In this document: positions 1,288 to 7,611 of the stretch, in pieces
How the letters are laid out: every line of letters starts with the position of its first letter
Position numbering within the stretch: position 1 is the first letter of the stretch
NCBI GenBank assembly: GCA_031265345.1
Contig: JAISCU010000282.1
Location: forward strand, 1 to 13,619
Direction of reading: 5' to 3'
DNA from: Bifidobacteriaceae bacterium
GTDB taxonomy: Bacteria > Actinomycetota > Actinomycetes > Actinomycetales > WQXJ01
Length of the DNA stretch: 13,619 bases
The notes under the pieces: model-generated
Seen by the model: the letters and a program-made list of their open reading frames with translations, nothing else
The model's database searches: none
What the model was told of the DNA's origin: nothing
Translations under genes and position numbers: made by a program

Positions 1288-2157
1288 TCAGTCCTTCGTC
1301 TTCCGGCCACCATCATGGCCGATGCCGTCTGGTCGTCCCCCGCCTGGGTCATCCTTGCTGTCGGTCGGGTCGGCGCCTTCTGGATCGCCGCCTTCTACTT
1401 GGCCATGGCGGTCATGGTCATCTTCGTCATAATCGTCCCCGTCGTGGTCGCCCTCATGGAGGGCGCCCTCGCCATGGTCATCTTCGTCATAGTCGCCTTC
1501 TTCATGGCCGTCCTCATTGTGGTGGTCCTCATCGAAGTCCTCCTGGCCGAAGTCTTCCTCGTACGGATCGTCCAGGCCGTCCTCGTGCGCCTGATCCGGG
1601 TCGAACTCGCTCAGCGCTGCGGCGCGCTCCGCTCTGGTTCGCGGGTTCAGACCCAGGAGCGTGTCCGCCGAGGCCATCGAGCGCGGCCAGATCGCCAAGA
1701 ACGCCGTCATCGCCATGAACCCGATGTCCCTGAGGATGTCCTGCCCGTACTTGGTCTGCTCACCGGGCTTCAACGCGCCATCGACCGAGAAACAGCCGCA
1801 GTCGATGGACAGTCCGCGCGCCCAGGCCGAGATGATCCCAGCAATGAACGCCACCAGCATCAGCCCGAACACGATTGACGCGTAACGGCTGAGGAGCCCG
1901 GTCAGGAACAGAATGCCGAGCGTCAGTTCGATGATCGGCAGGCCCACCCCGATCAGCTGGTTGATCGCGGGCGGGAAGATCTGGTACAGCGCCACCATTT
2001 GCGTGCTGCCGCGCAGGTCGGACAGCTTGGGGATGGCCGCCCAGAACATGACCACCGCGAGTCCGAGGCGGACCAGCAACGACAGCCACGGTTGTAGGCG
2101 CGGCCAAGCCTGCGGCGCGCGCGGAATGGCGCCGCTCAAATCTGGGGGCGTTGTCAC
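1288..2157 (-). CDS. MauE/DoxX family redox-associated membrane protein with acidic His-rich tail
   Basis: 289 aa from GTG 2157. Four hydrophobic segments (about residues 23-43, 67-88, 92-114 and 145-157) form the MauE/DoxX-type core. A DCGCF motif (Cys120, Cys122) sits between the third and fourth, matching the Cys pair typical of MauE. Proteins of this family are associated with disulfide chemistry outside the cytoplasm, and the downstream DsbA-like genes fit that role. From about residue 183 the core gives way to a roughly 105-residue tail rich in Asp, Glu, His and Gly, containing two copies of a DYDEDDH block encoded by a 35-bp DNA repeat (1413-1447 and 1473-1507, 60 bp apart). This tail is not part of the usual family architecture. 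GTG 2157 is preferred over TTG 2199 because a -10-like TACAGT lies 7 nt upstream and no ribosome site is seen at either. The start is the least certain point. Confidence 0.8.
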   Translation of the reverse strand: MTTPPDLSGAIPRAPQAWPRLQPWLSLLVRLGLAVVMFWAAIPKLSDLRGSTQMVALYQIFPPAINQLIGVGLPIIELTLGILFLTGLLSRYASIVFGLMLVAFIAGIISAWARGLSIDCGCFSVDGALKPGEQTKYGQDILRDIGFMAMTAFLAIWPRSMASADTLLGLNPRTRAERAAALSEFDPDQAHEDGLDDPYEEDFGQEDFDEDHHNEDGHEEGDYDEDDHGEGALHEGDHDGDDYDEDDHDRHGQVEGGDPEGADPTDSKDDPGGGRPDGIGHDGGRKTKD

Positions 2158-2164
2158 CCGCCCA

Positions 2165-2170
2165 ACTGTA
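2165..2170 (-). promoter_or_regulatory. Probable -10 box of a leaderless promoter for the MauE-DsbA operon
   Basis: On the minus strand TACAGT is followed by 7 nt (TGGGCGG) and then the GTG at 2157. This TANNNT-to-start spacing is what a leaderless actinobacterial transcript shows. No convincing -35 hexamer is seen at 17-18 nt. It also decides the start codon of the MauE-like gene. Confidence 0.4.
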
Positions 2171-2415
2171 CCGCTAGCACCTGTGAGCCCGCTGGGCAAT
2201 CACCAATTGCTCACGCAATAGCCACCCCCGCCGCCCCGTCCGGATCACCCGACCTCGATGTCTGTGTCACAGGGGGCAAGTCAGGATTGAGCCACAAAGA
2301 GTCAGACCCGGCAACACCGACGGGCGCACGGCACCATCAGAACGCGGGCGGTTGACGGAACAACCGTCGGCCCAACAGGTCGTGGCCCCAACCCCGGCCC
2401 GCACCGCTTCCGACG
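2171..2415. other. Intergenic stretch without a recognisable gene
   Basis: Both strands have short open frames here, but they are Arg/Pro/Ala-rich, have no ribosome sites and match nothing I know. The stretch separates the promoter of the MauE-DsbA operon from the tandem repeat and long repeat copy A. Confidence 0.5.
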
Positions 2416-2655: not shown

Positions 2656-3588
2656 CTAGCTGAACGCCTCGCGCCAGCTTTGCACCAGCGGGCCCAAGTG
2701 AGCGGGCGGAACGGGAGGCGACACCGCTTCTCGCATGGTGCGGATGAAGCCAGCGTCCGCGAGCAGCCGAACGAGGTACGCGATTCCTGCTTGGACGGAC
2801 ACCCCGATGGCCGGGTCGTCGCTGTACTCGGAGAAAGTCTCCGCGACCGCTGCCGGGGCGGCGGAGCCCATGAGGGCGAACAGGTCGGCGGCGTCCTTGT
2901 CGCGGAAGTACCGCCCGGAGTCGAACAGCCGCTCTCCGATCTTGAACGCCTTGGCCATTATCAACGCTGGCACGCCCGCCACGTACACCTCGACACTGAG
3001 CGCCGGGTCTTCCAGATCGGAAACCGTCATCAAACTGCGGTCGTAGACAGCTAGCTCCAAGCCCCGAGCGACGGTGGCGGCGCCCCTGCCGTGCCGCAAG
3101 GTCGCCGCGACCGAACGGCGGCGCGGACTCTCGTTGCCGGACAGCGCCGCAGGAACATCCAGGTCGATGCGCTCCGCAAAGGCCGTCCTCCCGGTCGGCG
3201 ACGTGTACGGGCTGCGTCCCCACAGACCCGGACGGGAGTCGGAGCGGGGCACGAATCCCGCTTGCGTCAAGGCGTCCTCGATCCGCGGGTCGCTGGCGAC
3301 TAGGGAGGGCGTCAGCGCGAAGTCCGCATCCTCGGTGCTCAGGTTGACACCGTGCCGGTCGATGGTTCTAAGGATGACCGCCTGCCCGCCCACCAGCGTC
3401 AACGCCCGCCGATGCTCGGAGAGAACATCGCCTACCAAAGCTATGATGGAACGCCGCGCCCACACGTACTGGGCGGCCAAGGATGGCCCCAAGGACCCGA
3501 GCGCGGCTTTCGGGGTCGCACGCCGTCCAACACGGGTCGGCGCGGCTTCGCCATTCCCCGACCAACCCGAGCCTTCCGCTCCTGTCAT
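2656..3588 (-). CDS. abiEii: AbiEii/AbiGii-family nucleotidyltransferase-like toxin
   Basis: 310 aa, predicted toxin half of a type IV (AbiE) toxin-antitoxin or phage-exclusion pair. The family has the polymerase-beta-type nucleotidyltransferase fold; members have been reported to act as NTP transferases that halt growth. Visible here: LVGGQAV (Gly67-Gly68), then TEDADF with Asp87 and Asp89 at the expected distance for the GG...DxD metal site, further acidic residues in ERIDLDV (Asp142, Asp144), and the family's C-terminal signature MAKAFKIGER...RDKDAADL (Lys213, Lys216, Arg229-Leu236). The N-terminal 35 residues are low-complexity. ATG 3588 was chosen over GTG 3594 because it forms a 4-nt ATGA overlap with the upstream gene's stop, standard for a coupled antitoxin-toxin pair. 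Length is in the family range and key residues look intact, so it may be active. Confidence 0.82.
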   Translation of the reverse strand: MTGAEGSGWSGNGEAAPTRVGRRATPKAALGSLGPSLAAQYVWARRSIIALVGDVLSEHRRALTLVGGQAVILRTIDRHGVNLSTEDADFALTPSLVASDPRIEDALTQAGFVPRSDSRPGLWGRSPYTSPTGRTAFAERIDLDVPAALSGNESPRRRSVAATLRHGRGAATVARGLELAVYDRSLMTVSDLEDPALSVEVYVAGVPALIMAKAFKIGERLFDSGRYFRDKDAADLFALMGSAAPAAVAETFSEYSDDPAIGVSVQAGIAYLVRLLADAGFIRTMREAVSPPVPPAHLGPLVQSWREAFS

Positions 3589-4343
3589 ACCCACAACCCC
3601 AGCAGTGCCTCGCCTTGCTCCTGACCGCGATTGGGAACGCCGTTGCAGTCGATGACGAGTTGGACCTCATCGGCCATCGGCACGTCGAAGGCGTTCCAAG
3701 TCTCGGCGAGCACGCGCCTTCCGACTTCGCTGATGCCGTTGAACGGGAGCAACGTCACAGTCCTCCCGTGCGGATCAACGGTTAGCGCCCGTGCCGCGAC
3801 GTCGGGATTCGGCACGTAGAAGACAGGGCTGGTGTCCCCCCCGACGGGGATCAACTCGTTCGCTGCTGCGCCACCGGTGAGAATCCAGTCGATATCACCC
3901 AGGCGCGTGGCTATCTCCAACCAGGAGCCTGAACAGGTGACCGTCCGCGCTCCTGCCCGGTCGGAAGGCCTGTTCGTGCGCCCGACGAATCGCAGCATCT
4001 CGGCTAGTTCCCAGCCCCGCCAGGCCTTGACCAGCGCCTCCGCCGCCCCATCAATCCGGCCATCGAAATCCGGGTTCGCGATCTTGCGGGCCGCCGCTAT
4101 CGCGGACGGATTCTCCGTTCGCTCCACTCCGAGCTCCAGGCCCAGCGCCCCCAGAATCCGTCCCGCCAGTTGCGCCGTCGGGTCGGACTCCCGGTTCTCG
4201 ACCCGGCTCACAGTGCGGGCGGACACGCCCGCCATCTCGGCCAGACGCGCGATCGAGAGAGAACTCATGATCCGTCCCGACTTGATTCGCGCCGCAATGT
4301 CCACGACCGAGACTCTACCAGACGCATATGACGCTAGTGCCAT
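3585..4343 (-). CDS. abiEi: AbiEi-type antitoxin / transcriptional regulator with N-terminal HTH
   Basis: 252 aa, predicted antitoxin and autorepressor of the downstream AbiEii-like gene. Residues about 14-70 form an XRE/Cro-like helix-turn-helix (DIAARIKSGRIM, then LAEMAGVSARTVSRVENRES). Its first helix lies upstream of Met26, so the ATG at 4343 is right and the ATG at 4268 would cut the domain. Residues about 137-252 resemble the AbiEi C-terminal domain: WILTGGAAANELIPVGG, VFYVPNPD, then VQLVIDCNGVPNRGQEQGEALL, which matches the family pattern of a D...RGxEaAexLL ending. AGGAA sits directly before the ATG. A perfect TGACA-N4-TGTCA palindrome lies upstream and could be its own operator. The AbiEi assignment rests on motif resemblance plus the adjacent toxin; the fold of the middle (80-135) is not recognised. 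Confidence 0.75.
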   Translation of the reverse strand: MALASYASGRVSVVDIAARIKSGRIMSSLSIARLAEMAGVSARTVSRVENRESDPTAQLAGRILGALGLELGVERTENPSAIAAARKIANPDFDGRIDGAAEALVKAWRGWELAEMLRFVGRTNRPSDRAGARTVTCSGSWLEIATRLGDIDWILTGGAAANELIPVGGDTSPVFYVPNPDVAARALTVDPHGRTVTLLPFNGISEVGRRVLAETWNAFDVPMADEVQLVIDCNGVPNRGQEQGEALLGLWV

Positions 4344-4588: not shown

Positions 4589-4753
4589 CGGCATCGGCGG
4601 CCTTGGAACACGACCCCAGAAAATGTCTTCACCCGAAGCGAAATTTCCGGGCCTTGGGCACGAAACGGGGACGGACCCGTTATCCACAGGGCCTGACCTG
4701 CGCGGACACCTGTGGAAAACCGCCGGGCGGGCACGAAAAGGTACCGTCCCCGA
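4589..4753. repeat. Long direct repeat, copy B (REP-like, with DnaA-box-like nonamer)
   Basis: Right copy of the repeat described at 2484-2646, same orientation. TTATCCACA is at 4680-4688 and the opposite-facing TGTGGAAAA at 4711-4719, inside the outer CGGGGACGG / CCGTCCCCG inverted pair. The two copies frame the AbiE cassette exactly: nothing else lies between them except its promoter and short gene-free flanks. No transposase gene is present between or beside them. Confidence 0.85.
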
Positions 4754-4775
4754 GACGGGGGCGGCGCGGGGGATT

Positions 4776-4849: not shown

Positions 4850-6439
4850 TCAGACCTCGGAGAGAAGCTGCCTCAGCAACGCGATGTGCCGGAGGATGGC
4901 CTGCTCACCGCCGACCTGGTCCTCGAGCTCGGCCAGCAACTCCAGCTCGTTCAACTCGCTGGCCCGGCGCCCGGCCGCCCGGCCCACCGGCCCAGGCCGC
5001 TTGGCGACTTGCAGCAGCGAGACCAACTTCGCGGCCAACGCGACCTGACCAGCGGCCAGATTCGCGTATTCGACGGAGCGGCGGATCTGGACCGCCACGG
5101 CCACCGGATCGCGCGAATCGCCGGCCGGGGCCTCTTGGTCCTCGCGGAAAGCGGTGACGTCGATCTCCTCGGGCGCCGAGTCGGCCGGGTCCGGAGCGCC
5201 CGCGGGCGTGGCCGGCAAATAGGCGTCCGCGCGGGCCTGCTCGTCGGTGTACCGGTAGACCGGCCGGCCGAAGTACTCGTAGACCGGTTCGGCCTGGGCG
5301 GGCGGCACGCCCACAATCCCAACCTGGTAGGCGTCCGGGAAGCGGTCCAGCACGTCGCGCCAGGTCGCTTGGTCCGCGGTCTGGCCGCCATGCGCCAGGT
5401 TGACCACCACCAGGTTCACGGAAGCCGGATCGAGCCCGTCGAAGGAATCTCCCAACGACCCGATCGTCACGTCCGCGGCCGTCGATTCGGCGAGGCGGCG
5501 GACCGGGGCCAGAGTGCTCCGGGTGGACTGGCCGACCGGGCGGTCGTCCAGGTAGAGCATTCCGACATGGTCGCGCGGGTGGGTCGCCAACTCATAAGCG
5601 GCGAACTTGGCCATCAGGGCCGCGGCGACGAACGTGGTCCCCGTGCCCGCGGGCAGGCTGATGAGCACCCTGCGCTCGGGTTGGCTGATCGCGCCCAGAG
5701 CCCTGGCGATCGCCGCGCCCTGGTAGTACCGGAGCTGGACCGGCGCGGAGCCGTCGGACAGGATGTCGTGGTCGAACGGTTGCGACACCAGTTGGGCGCC
5801 AGCGCGGCGCAGATGGTGCAGGCGCAGGTAGGAGCGCCAGGCACGGATCGGAGTGGCGAAGTCGTCGACCGACCGGGTCTGCCCGGAAGCGACGAAGTGC
5901 TCCACGATCTGATGCCCGTTGGTGGCGTAGGCCAAAGGCACGTCCAGCTTGGTCGCCTGCCGGATGGCTCGGGCCAGGCCGGTGCGCGGGTCGTGTTGCG
6001 ACCCCACTGTCGCCACCACGGCCACGGGAGTCCCGGGACGCGCGGACAGCACGTAGGAGACGCGGTCGTCGCGCGACCCGTGGTGGTGCTGGCGCGCGAC
6101 CGAGGGGGGAGCCGCCGGGGGACGCAGCTGGTAGTCCCGGTGGACTTGCTCCGGCTCCCATTGCGCGCGGTCGAACAGGTCGACCACGAAAGCATGACGC
6201 GACCCGGCGCGGATGTGCGGCCGGTCCCCGGCCGTCCAGGCCGGAGAGCGGCGATGGTTGAATATCTCTTTCGGGGAGGGCGACGACCTGGGTCGGCGGG
6301 GCCGGCCCACAGCCGGGCTGTCGCCCACCGCGTCAAGAGCTATTGAGTTGCCATGTGTCGAGGCCTTAGGTGTGGACGCCGGGACAGCTGAAGGACGTTC
6401 AGCCGCCCGGCCCTTGTTGGTGTTACTCGCAGCAGTCAT
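4850..6439 (-). CDS. Type I restriction R-subunit-like protein with all visible catalytic motifs degenerate
   Basis: 529 aa, laid out like an HsdR subunit. Residues 1-75 are a disordered Pro/Arg/Ser-rich start. SRHAFVVDLFDRAQWEPEQV (80-99) matches the HsdR TR-lID-L-AGW entry. VSYVL (127-131) and PVAVVATVG (138-146) stand where nuclease DYvL and vvEAK belong, so D becomes Ser128, E becomes Ala143 and K becomes Val145. LAYATNGHQIVEHF (169-182) is the conserved NGH block. LRYYQGAAI (236-244) is the Q-motif, LPAGTGTT (262-269) replaces ATGTGKT (Lys to Thr268), MLYLDDRPVGQ (294-304) is motif Ia, VVVNLAHGG (344-352) replaces DEAH with NLAH, GIVGVP (374-379) replaces LTATP, and EYFGRPVYRYTDEQARADAYL (388-408) is the conserved YFG block. 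It then ends in about 120 residues of acidic linker and helices, with no second RecA domain. The frame is unbroken. No hsdM or hsdS is in view. Function unknown; a binding or scaffold role is inferred. Confidence 0.7.
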   Translation of the reverse strand: MTAASNTNKGRAAERPSAVPASTPKASTHGNSIALDAVGDSPAVGRPRRPRSSPSPKEIFNHRRSPAWTAGDRPHIRAGSRHAFVVDLFDRAQWEPEQVHRDYQLRPPAAPPSVARQHHHGSRDDRVSYVLSARPGTPVAVVATVGSQHDPRTGLARAIRQATKLDVPLAYATNGHQIVEHFVASGQTRSVDDFATPIRAWRSYLRLHHLRRAGAQLVSQPFDHDILSDGSAPVQLRYYQGAAIARALGAISQPERRVLISLPAGTGTTFVAAALMAKFAAYELATHPRDHVGMLYLDDRPVGQSTRSTLAPVRRLAESTAADVTIGSLGDSFDGLDPASVNLVVVNLAHGGQTADQATWRDVLDRFPDAYQVGIVGVPPAQAEPVYEYFGRPVYRYTDEQARADAYLPATPAGAPDPADSAPEEIDVTAFREDQEAPAGDSRDPVAVAVQIRRSVEYANLAAGQVALAAKLVSLLQVAKRPGPVGRAAGRRASELNELELLAELEDQVGGEQAILRHIALLRQLLSEV

Positions 6440-6445
6440 GAGCCC

Positions 6446-6451
6446 AATCTA
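6446..6451 (-). promoter_or_regulatory. Probable -10 box of a leaderless promoter for the HsdR-like gene
   Basis: TAGATT on the minus strand is followed by 6 nt (GGGCTC) and then the ATG at 6439, with no ribosome site. This gives the HsdR-like gene its own promoter in the 92-bp gap after ino1. GTGACC and GGTCAC (6468-6473, 6490-6495) form a small inverted repeat just upstream. Confidence 0.45.
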
Positions 6452-6531
6452 CGGCCATGGCCGCGCTGTGACCTAGGACACAAGAGTTGGGTCACTATGT
6501 GGACGCACAACCAGCGCCGCGAAATCTACTT

Positions 6532-7611
6532 TTATCGGACGAGTTCGCCCGCGATGAACGCCTCGACCATCCGACGGCCCTCTCGATCCTCATGCTGGAC
6601 CGGCGGCGACTTGAAGAAATAGGTCGATGGACTGGTGATGGGCCCCCCGATCCCGCGGTCCTTGGCGATTTTGACCGCCCGCAGGGCGTCGATGATGATC
6701 CCGGCCGAGTTCGGCGAGTCCCAGACTTCGAGCTTGTACTCCAAGTTCAGCGGCACCTCGCCGAAAGCCCGTCCTTCTAGCCTGACGAACGCCCATTTGC
6801 GGTCATCCAGCCAGGCCACATAGTCGGACGGGCCAATGTGAATGTCGCGGGCCGGGAGCTCATGGTCCATGTTCGAGGTGACCGACTGGGTCTTGGAGAT
6901 CTTCTTCGACTCCAACCGCTCCCGCTCCAACATGTTCTTGAAGTCCATGTTGCCGCCGACGTTCAACTGGTAGGTCCGGTCCATCACCACGCCGCGGTCC
7001 TCGAACAGCCGAGCCAGCACGCGGTGCGTGATGGTCGCGCCGACCTGGGATTTGATGTCGTCACCCACGATCGGCACCCCGGCGGCTTCGAACTTGGCCG
7101 CCCAGGCCGGGTCGGAGGCGATGAACACCGGCAAGGCGTTGACAAAGGCGACGCCCGCGTCTATTGCGCACTGGGCGTAGAACTTGTCGGCCTGCTCGCT
7201 GCCCACCGGCAGGTAGCTGATCAACACGTCGACCTGTTTGTCCCTCAGTTCTTGGACCACATCCACCGGTGCCGCGTCCGATTCGGCGATGGTCTCACGG
7301 TAATACTTGCCCAAGCCGTCGAACGTGGCGCCGCGTTTGACCTCGACGCCCTTGAACGGCACGTCCGCGATCTTGATCGTGTTGTTCTGGCTAGCCCCGA
7401 TCGCCTCCGACAGATCCAGCCCGACCTTGGCGGAATCGACGTCGAAAGCCGTGACGAACTCGATGTCGCGGACGTGATACGGACCGAACTGGACGTGCAT
7501 AAGGCCGGGCACCGTCGAATCTGGATCGGCGTCCTTGTAGAACTCGACGCCCTGGACCAGCGACGCTGCGCAGTTCCCAACGCCGGCTATGGCGACCCGA
7601 ATGGGGCTCAT
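6532..7611 (-). CDS. ino1: Inositol-3-phosphate synthase (myo-inositol-1-phosphate synthase)
   Basis: Cytoplasmic NAD-dependent enzyme that cyclises D-glucose 6-phosphate to 1D-myo-inositol 3-phosphate, the entry to phosphatidylinositol and, in many actinobacteria, mycothiol. 359 aa, the usual length of the short actinobacterial form. Visible: nucleotide-binding loop [13 protein letters not shown] (6-18), [19 protein letters not shown] (131-149), [12 protein letters not shown] (157-168), [15 protein letters not shown] (183-197), [13 protein letters not shown] (215-227) and [13 protein letters not shown] (235-247); all conserved in the family, and the sequence shows no gaps or odd substitutions. 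AAGGAG lies 5 nt before the ATG. It follows padR by a 12-nt gap and is presumably co-transcribed and repressed by it, an arrangement known from mycobacteria (Rv0046c/Rv0047c). Confidence 0.97.

Follow-up and report, generated by a model that had tools for sequence, protein, structure and literature searches.

Locus and ancestry of the protein

The stretch analysed here (the window) is a 13,619-nucleotide contig of a Bifidobacteriaceae bacterium, and its minus strand carries a 529-codon open reading frame (ORF) at 4850-6439 whose product resembles HsdR, the R subunit of type I restriction enzymes, with its catalytic residues replaced. A sequence-only reading had described this frame as unbroken; the ORF list bears it out, with an ATG start that is further supported by the conservation among loci of the layout upstream of it. 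The protein is laid out as follows, with residue counts given over the family members defined below and confidence as the predicted local distance difference test (pLDDT).

4850..6439, minus strand: HsdR-derived pseudoenzyme, 529 amino acids, from the ORF and from profile and structure matches
6215..6439, minus strand: variable, mostly disordered tail, residues 1-75 (pLDDT <50 for 1-66)
5756..6214, minus strand: former nuclease domain, residues 76-228, catalytic residues replaced, charge now basic
6005..6013, minus strand: A-T-V replacing E-A-K, residues 143-145 (E kept in 0/15, K in 0/15)
5957..5971, minus strand: RxxxQ replacing QxxxY, residues 157-161 (Q 0/15, Y 0/15)
5210..5755, minus strand: RecA1-like domain without ATPase residues, residues 229-410, by alignment
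5633..5647, minus strand: GTGTT replacing GTGKT (Walker A), residues 265-269 (K 0/17, T269 17/17)
5390..5401, minus strand: NLAH replacing DECH (Walker B), residues 347-350 (N, L and H each 17/17)
5303..5314, minus strand: VGVP replacing TATP (motif III), residues 376-379, by alignment
5078..5209, minus strand: linker where RecA2 would begin, residues 411-454 (pLDDT <50 for 414-454)
4853..5077, minus strand: conserved helical C-terminal segment, residues 455-529, possibly, on weak evidence, left over from the helical domain of HsdR

An HsdR-like fold had been proposed from the letters alone, and profile searches agree: the window protein matches Pfam ResIII (E 4.9e-7), the NCBIfam EcoAI HsdR profile (NF046051, E 4.8e-46) and PDB entry 3h1t (E 1.5e-23), all far above chance, and keeps the nuclease-RecA1 fold of HsdR. 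The NF046051 score of 157 bits does not reach the curated cut-off of 550, which was also missed in 18/18 genomes of the same bacterial family and 14/14 control genomes and therefore separates little. Judged from these matches, the pseudoenzyme goes back to a type I restriction R subunit of the EcoAI type. With EcoAI/FtnUII-type subunits (NF046051; 3h1t; EcoR124I, 2w00) it shares two domains, nuclease and RecA1, in fold and in order, along with RxYQ, the motif Ia Arg, the NG block and FGxPxYxY, whereas its nuclease and ATPase residues are replaced, RecA2 is gone and the nuclease-like domain is basic.

A protein search gave a list of 16, namely 15 of the pseudoenzyme kind (window product included) and one ordinary HsdR, and a repeat search with an alignment returned the identical set minus P0011. 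Seven of the 15 (P0001, P0003-P0006, P0009 and P0014) were redundant with a locus copy or with the window, which was used in their stead; once genome loci were added, the family held 17 distinct members, window included, with G011, a contig-end fragment, excluded from protein counts. Some members are labelled 'type I restriction R subunit', which suggests that such labels can hide non-restriction proteins. Residues were compared with 18 hand-picked HsdR rows (nine of the 120 listed, P0016 and eight genome loci), among which L013 is a fragment and P0075 begins after the nuclease Asp. L013 comes from G001, and its positions 1414-2511 encode 365 codons of an ordinary HsdR with its motifs intact, away from the pseudoenzyme of that genome.

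Replaced residues and altered charge

The available text of PMC4454674 names a nuclease catalytic triad and a QxxxY motif for EcoR124I. As the sequence-only reading had claimed, the triad is gone from the window protein: Ser128 stands opposite an Asp found in 17/17 aligned HsdR rows, and Ala143 and Val145 stand opposite Glu and Lys (18/18 each). Neither D...ExK nor QxxxY is present in any of the 15 family members that cover this region. The change of QxxxY to RxxxQ had been overlooked, as had the loss of RecA2.

The motor has been lost as well, again at the positions named earlier, with Thr268, N347-L348 and VGVP standing opposite the Walker A Lys, the Walker B Asp-Glu and TATP, each present in 18/18 HsdR rows; Lys and Asp-Glu are each found in none of the 17 members. 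A Pfam search did not match Helicase_C (RecA2) in the window protein, which has no such domain, and in the dead-form genomes a 768-position family profile matched only within 4-218 and 266-344, with an additional match at 397-549 in G008. The claim that every recognisable catalytic residue is replaced was nevertheless too broad: it holds for the named sites, but T269 of Walker A, RxYQ and R300 of motif Ia stay (17/17 each). Of the signatures said to be retained, FGxPxYxY is kept in the alignment with HsdR, the 'NGH' block keeps NG but not its His, and 'DDRxVxQ' keeps the motif Ia Arg but not the Gln.

Together with Gly267, kept in 16/17 members, T269 and RxYQ would suit a protein that binds nucleotide without hydrolysis as an ATP/ADP-sensing switch. 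We consider this improbable, as the Walker A Lys and Walker B Asp-Glu are missing throughout, G265 is replaced in G002 and P0007, the Walker A loop is broken up in G006, and RecA2, the other half of the superfamily 2 ATP site, is absent.

The mean charge of the former nuclease domain is -4.4 in HsdR (-7 to 1, n=17) and +9.2 in the family (4 to 13, n=14), compared with +8 in G017 and -2.7 in the nuclease-dead, motor-intact forms described below; the charge of the RecA1-like domain is little changed. Invariant Arg residues were gained at 77, 157, 199 and 202, and the first 60 residues carry a net charge of +2 to +10 (10 loci). Further gains are H119, H120 and D125 (15/15 in the family) and Q148 (14/15), each in at most one HsdR row, and H149 (15/15), which is nevertheless present in 4/18 HsdR rows. 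Invariant or nearly so in the family and flanking the old catalytic centre in sequence, these five residues could make up a new site, catalytic or metal-binding, in an enzyme of changed chemistry; the HHG stretch falls in a low-confidence spot of the predicted structure (117-121), and we give this explanation little weight.

The C-terminal segment may derive from the helical domain of HsdR, which the available text of PMC5248579 describes as thought to touch the methyltransferase. In-register tail matches occurred in 15 of the 97 HsdR with any match and in none of five shuffles or the reversed sequences, and the C-terminal 110 residues matched 20 of 111 HsdR against 0-2 in 10 shuffles, the HsdR rows in these counts being related proteins and not independent ones. 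The best profile match was to a single protein (E 5e-4), for a profile built from 13 of the 17 members; the four without a readable segment were excluded (absent in G005, P0013 and P0015, out of frame in G004). Such a remnant would let the pseudoenzyme take the place of an active R subunit on HsdM/HsdS, inhibiting or tuning restriction, and three carriers (G001, G003 and G017) do have HsdS and strong HsdM matches. In a further difference from EcoAI/FtnUII-type systems, HsdS was not found in the other six of the nine carriers, whose assemblies may be incomplete; G002 and G010 had no N6_Mtase match and the remaining four only matches at E 1e-5 to 6e-7. G011, outside the nine, had no HsdS, though an N6_Mtase match at 4.9e-19. 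A restriction role is unlikely because these six carriers show neither HsdS nor a strong HsdM match, and the absence or shifted frame of the segment in 4/17 members and the usual position of the gene beside Ino1 also speak against it. Profile libraries found no hsdM or hsdS among the window neighbours searched.

Relatives, selection and upstream layout

Members with known placement all fall in one bacterial family, where 11 of 18 genomes gave matches: eight carry the dead form, G011 the fragment, G017 an intermediate and G008 a motor-intact form. Six relatives are metagenome-assembled genomes named 'Bifidobacteriaceae bacterium', and their sample codes suggest a termite or other insect host. 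An order-wide scan, which scored four candidates per genome only, matched 18 of 396 genomes at 1e-10, and the seven matches outside the family are frames of 805-867 codons with GTGKT and DECH.

The G017 copy adjoins Ino1 and reads GAGRT, DEAR and TCAS, without RecA2 or nuclease residues. G008 (P0017), P0018 and P0019 differ from the window protein in keeping Walker A (GxGKT), Walker B (DECH), TATP and RecA2, while their nuclease Lys has become Ala (3/3), the Asp is lost in both that cover it (2/2) and the Glu is kept in 2/3. They share with the pseudoenzyme the lost nuclease Lys, a neighbouring tree branch and Arg157, which is common to all three stages and is Gln in 18/18 HsdR rows. The G008 copy lies 3.4 kb past Ino1, behind genes that we take to be nrdD/nrdG-like, and its nuclease-dead HsdR is fused to an MFS transporter (PF07690) in one 1065-codon frame (L045, 471-3668).

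The protein tree, which took 37 of 39 rows (HsdR rows P0016 and L042 were left out), supports HsdR (99/98), the nuclease-dead group (100/99) and G017 plus the pseudoenzymes (100/99). In a tree of Ino1 and PadR, a species proxy with a midpoint root and several weak inner forks, one side unites G008 with G007, G009, G014 and G018 (100/99) and the other holds G017 and the remaining genomes, G017 branching first (83/82), the topology predicted by vertical, stepwise disarming.

Among close relatives, G017 excluded, maximum-likelihood (ML) omega was 0.069 for the nuclease-like, 0.086 for the RecA1-like and 0.081 for the C-terminal part, next to 0.070 for DoxX, 0.084 for DsbA, 0.049 for PadR and 0.021 for Ino1. 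Third-position changes are in excess in the pseudoenzyme frame, and a read-through search counted no stops inside any match, against a neutral expectation of ~11-17 per pair. The replacements are shared across the family, a check that the sequence-only reading had proposed, and the fixed Asn347 and Leu348 (17/17) point to selection on the new residues. From these codon comparisons, the gene is under purifying selection, and enzyme homology, loss of catalytic residues and selective maintenance together mark its product as a probable pseudoenzyme.

Upstream of the gene lie three features.

6446..6451, minus strand: -10-like TAGATT lying 6 nt upstream of the ATG, as in a leaderless gene
6467..6482, minus strand: dyad TGTGTCCTAGGTCACA, marked by GTG-N8-CAC conservation
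6532..7611, minus strand: myo-inositol-1-phosphate synthase (Ino1), the usual upstream neighbour

A TA[AG]N[CT]T hexamer stands at -12/-13 from the ATG in 11/11 loci and GTG-N8-CAC at -42/-43 in 8/11 (not in G006, G010 and G017), both patterns having been written after the sequences were seen; as a bare motif, GTG-N8-CAC is not enriched within the window. The layout persists in G003, on a contig that has no Ino1, and in G005, where the gene is convergent with Ino1, suggesting that the pseudoenzyme gene forms a transcription unit of its own, probably with a leaderless promoter. The dyad resembles what we take to be a CRP-family site, and a regulator of that family perhaps controls the gene. Directly upstream of the dyad, most loci have a conserved stretch like CATGCTGACCC (window 6489-6501).

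Interpretation and surroundings of the gene

The sequences show that all three sets of catalytic residues are replaced, that the relatives are graded and that a promoter-like upstream layout is conserved. The explanation that we favour, and hold to be fairly likely, is a conserved pseudoenzyme, vertically descended from an EcoAI-type R subunit, disarmed stepwise and working by binding. The nuclease would have been lost first with the motor intact (G008 type), RecA2 next, along with a shift of the nuclease-like domain to a basic charge (G017 type), and the remaining ATPase residues last (window type), an order read from living relatives. We infer that no cleavage, translocation or ATP hydrolysis is left, and the leftover protein probably does a new, non-catalytic job. 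The charge reversal and the gained Arg residues make binding by the old nuclease domain the simplest mechanism: this Arg-rich domain would most likely hold nucleic acid, or else some other polyanion, and the RecA1-like domain would serve as a rigid platform. A protein kept for binding had been suggested before, a reading that is partly supported: the part about a selectively kept pseudoenzyme stands, while the proposed inhibitor of an R subunit is unlikely with HsdS absent from most carriers. A more specific and more tentative possibility is domestication: through intermediates that still survive, a restriction motor would have become a chromosomal DNA- or RNA-binder, under regulation at a housekeeping locus, by a reversal of charge in its nuclease domain.

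Several points weigh against the stepwise origin of a binding protein. Assemblies of the family genomes are fragmented and come without completeness values, and the gene is not present in the readable slot beside Ino1 in G012 and G018, suggesting that some species do without it. The stage order requires a root within HsdR, and long branches could pull degenerate forms together in the tree. The charge reversal is one evolutionary event, not many, and the basic domain may bind something else. For 15 core pairs, NG86 gave dN 0.16-0.31, dS 0.6-1.1 and dN/dS 0.16-0.47 (DsbA pairs 0.17-0.30, Ino1 0.03-0.08), and YN00 gave dN/dS of ~0.56 from 2/24 pairs (C-terminal segment only), with dS near saturation; both are higher than ML, which leaves the magnitude of omega uncertain, although all values are below 1. 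In G004 a frameshift precedes the C-terminal part of the gene, perhaps through an assembly error.

These ratios and the G004 frameshift, together with high G+C at third codon positions (0.84-0.90 in 6 loci) and a 544-codon ORF on the opposite strand, are what a slowly decaying pseudogene would offer, its frame kept open by chance, through high G+C or the long antisense ORF. This reading is already contradicted by the ML omega of 0.06-0.09, the third-position excess in the pseudoenzyme frame, the conserved promoter-like layout and an antisense ORF without a Pfam match, and we regard it as highly improbable.

Among known proteins, the nearest parallel that we found, by analogy, is Utp25/Def, a small-subunit processome factor called a validated pseudohelicase in the available text of PMC9539457, which likewise keeps a helicase fold with dispensable catalytic motifs. 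Utp25/Def is eukaryotic, of DEAD-box origin, with both RecA domains and a role in ribosome assembly, whereas the pseudoenzyme is bacterial and restriction-derived, with one RecA domain and a disarmed nuclease domain. Termite-gut Bifidobacteriaceae are described in PMC11707648, whose available text gives the termite genera a low G+C, unlike the window, and whose main text does not contain the word 'restriction'. Our literature search, in which most subscription papers were not covered, yielded no account of a conserved pseudoenzyme derived from HsdR. Pseudoenzymes are usually known just from their final state; in this bacterial family ordered stages appear to survive, which make it testable when a dead enzyme acquires a new role.

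Among the other five family genomes without a match, G007 and G014 have a different sequence beside Ino1, the contigs of G009 and G016 end within ~300 bases, and G015 gave no Ino1 match. The G012 slot (L048, downstream of Ino1) holds a 480-codon frame that by eye resembles a repeat-rich lipoprotein. One further gene of the window lies downstream.

1288..2199, minus strand: gene that we take to be DoxX/MauE-like, the next downstream gene in G001, G002, G004 and G013

In those four genomes it adjoins the pseudoenzyme gene, and in the window a pair of genes separates the two: an HTH_3 gene (3585-4343) and a second, unassigned gene (2656-3594), presumably an AbiEii-type nucleotidyltransferase by its motif. 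The pair (2656-4343) is bracketed by a 140-nt direct repeat (92%) at 2514-2653 and 4621-4760.
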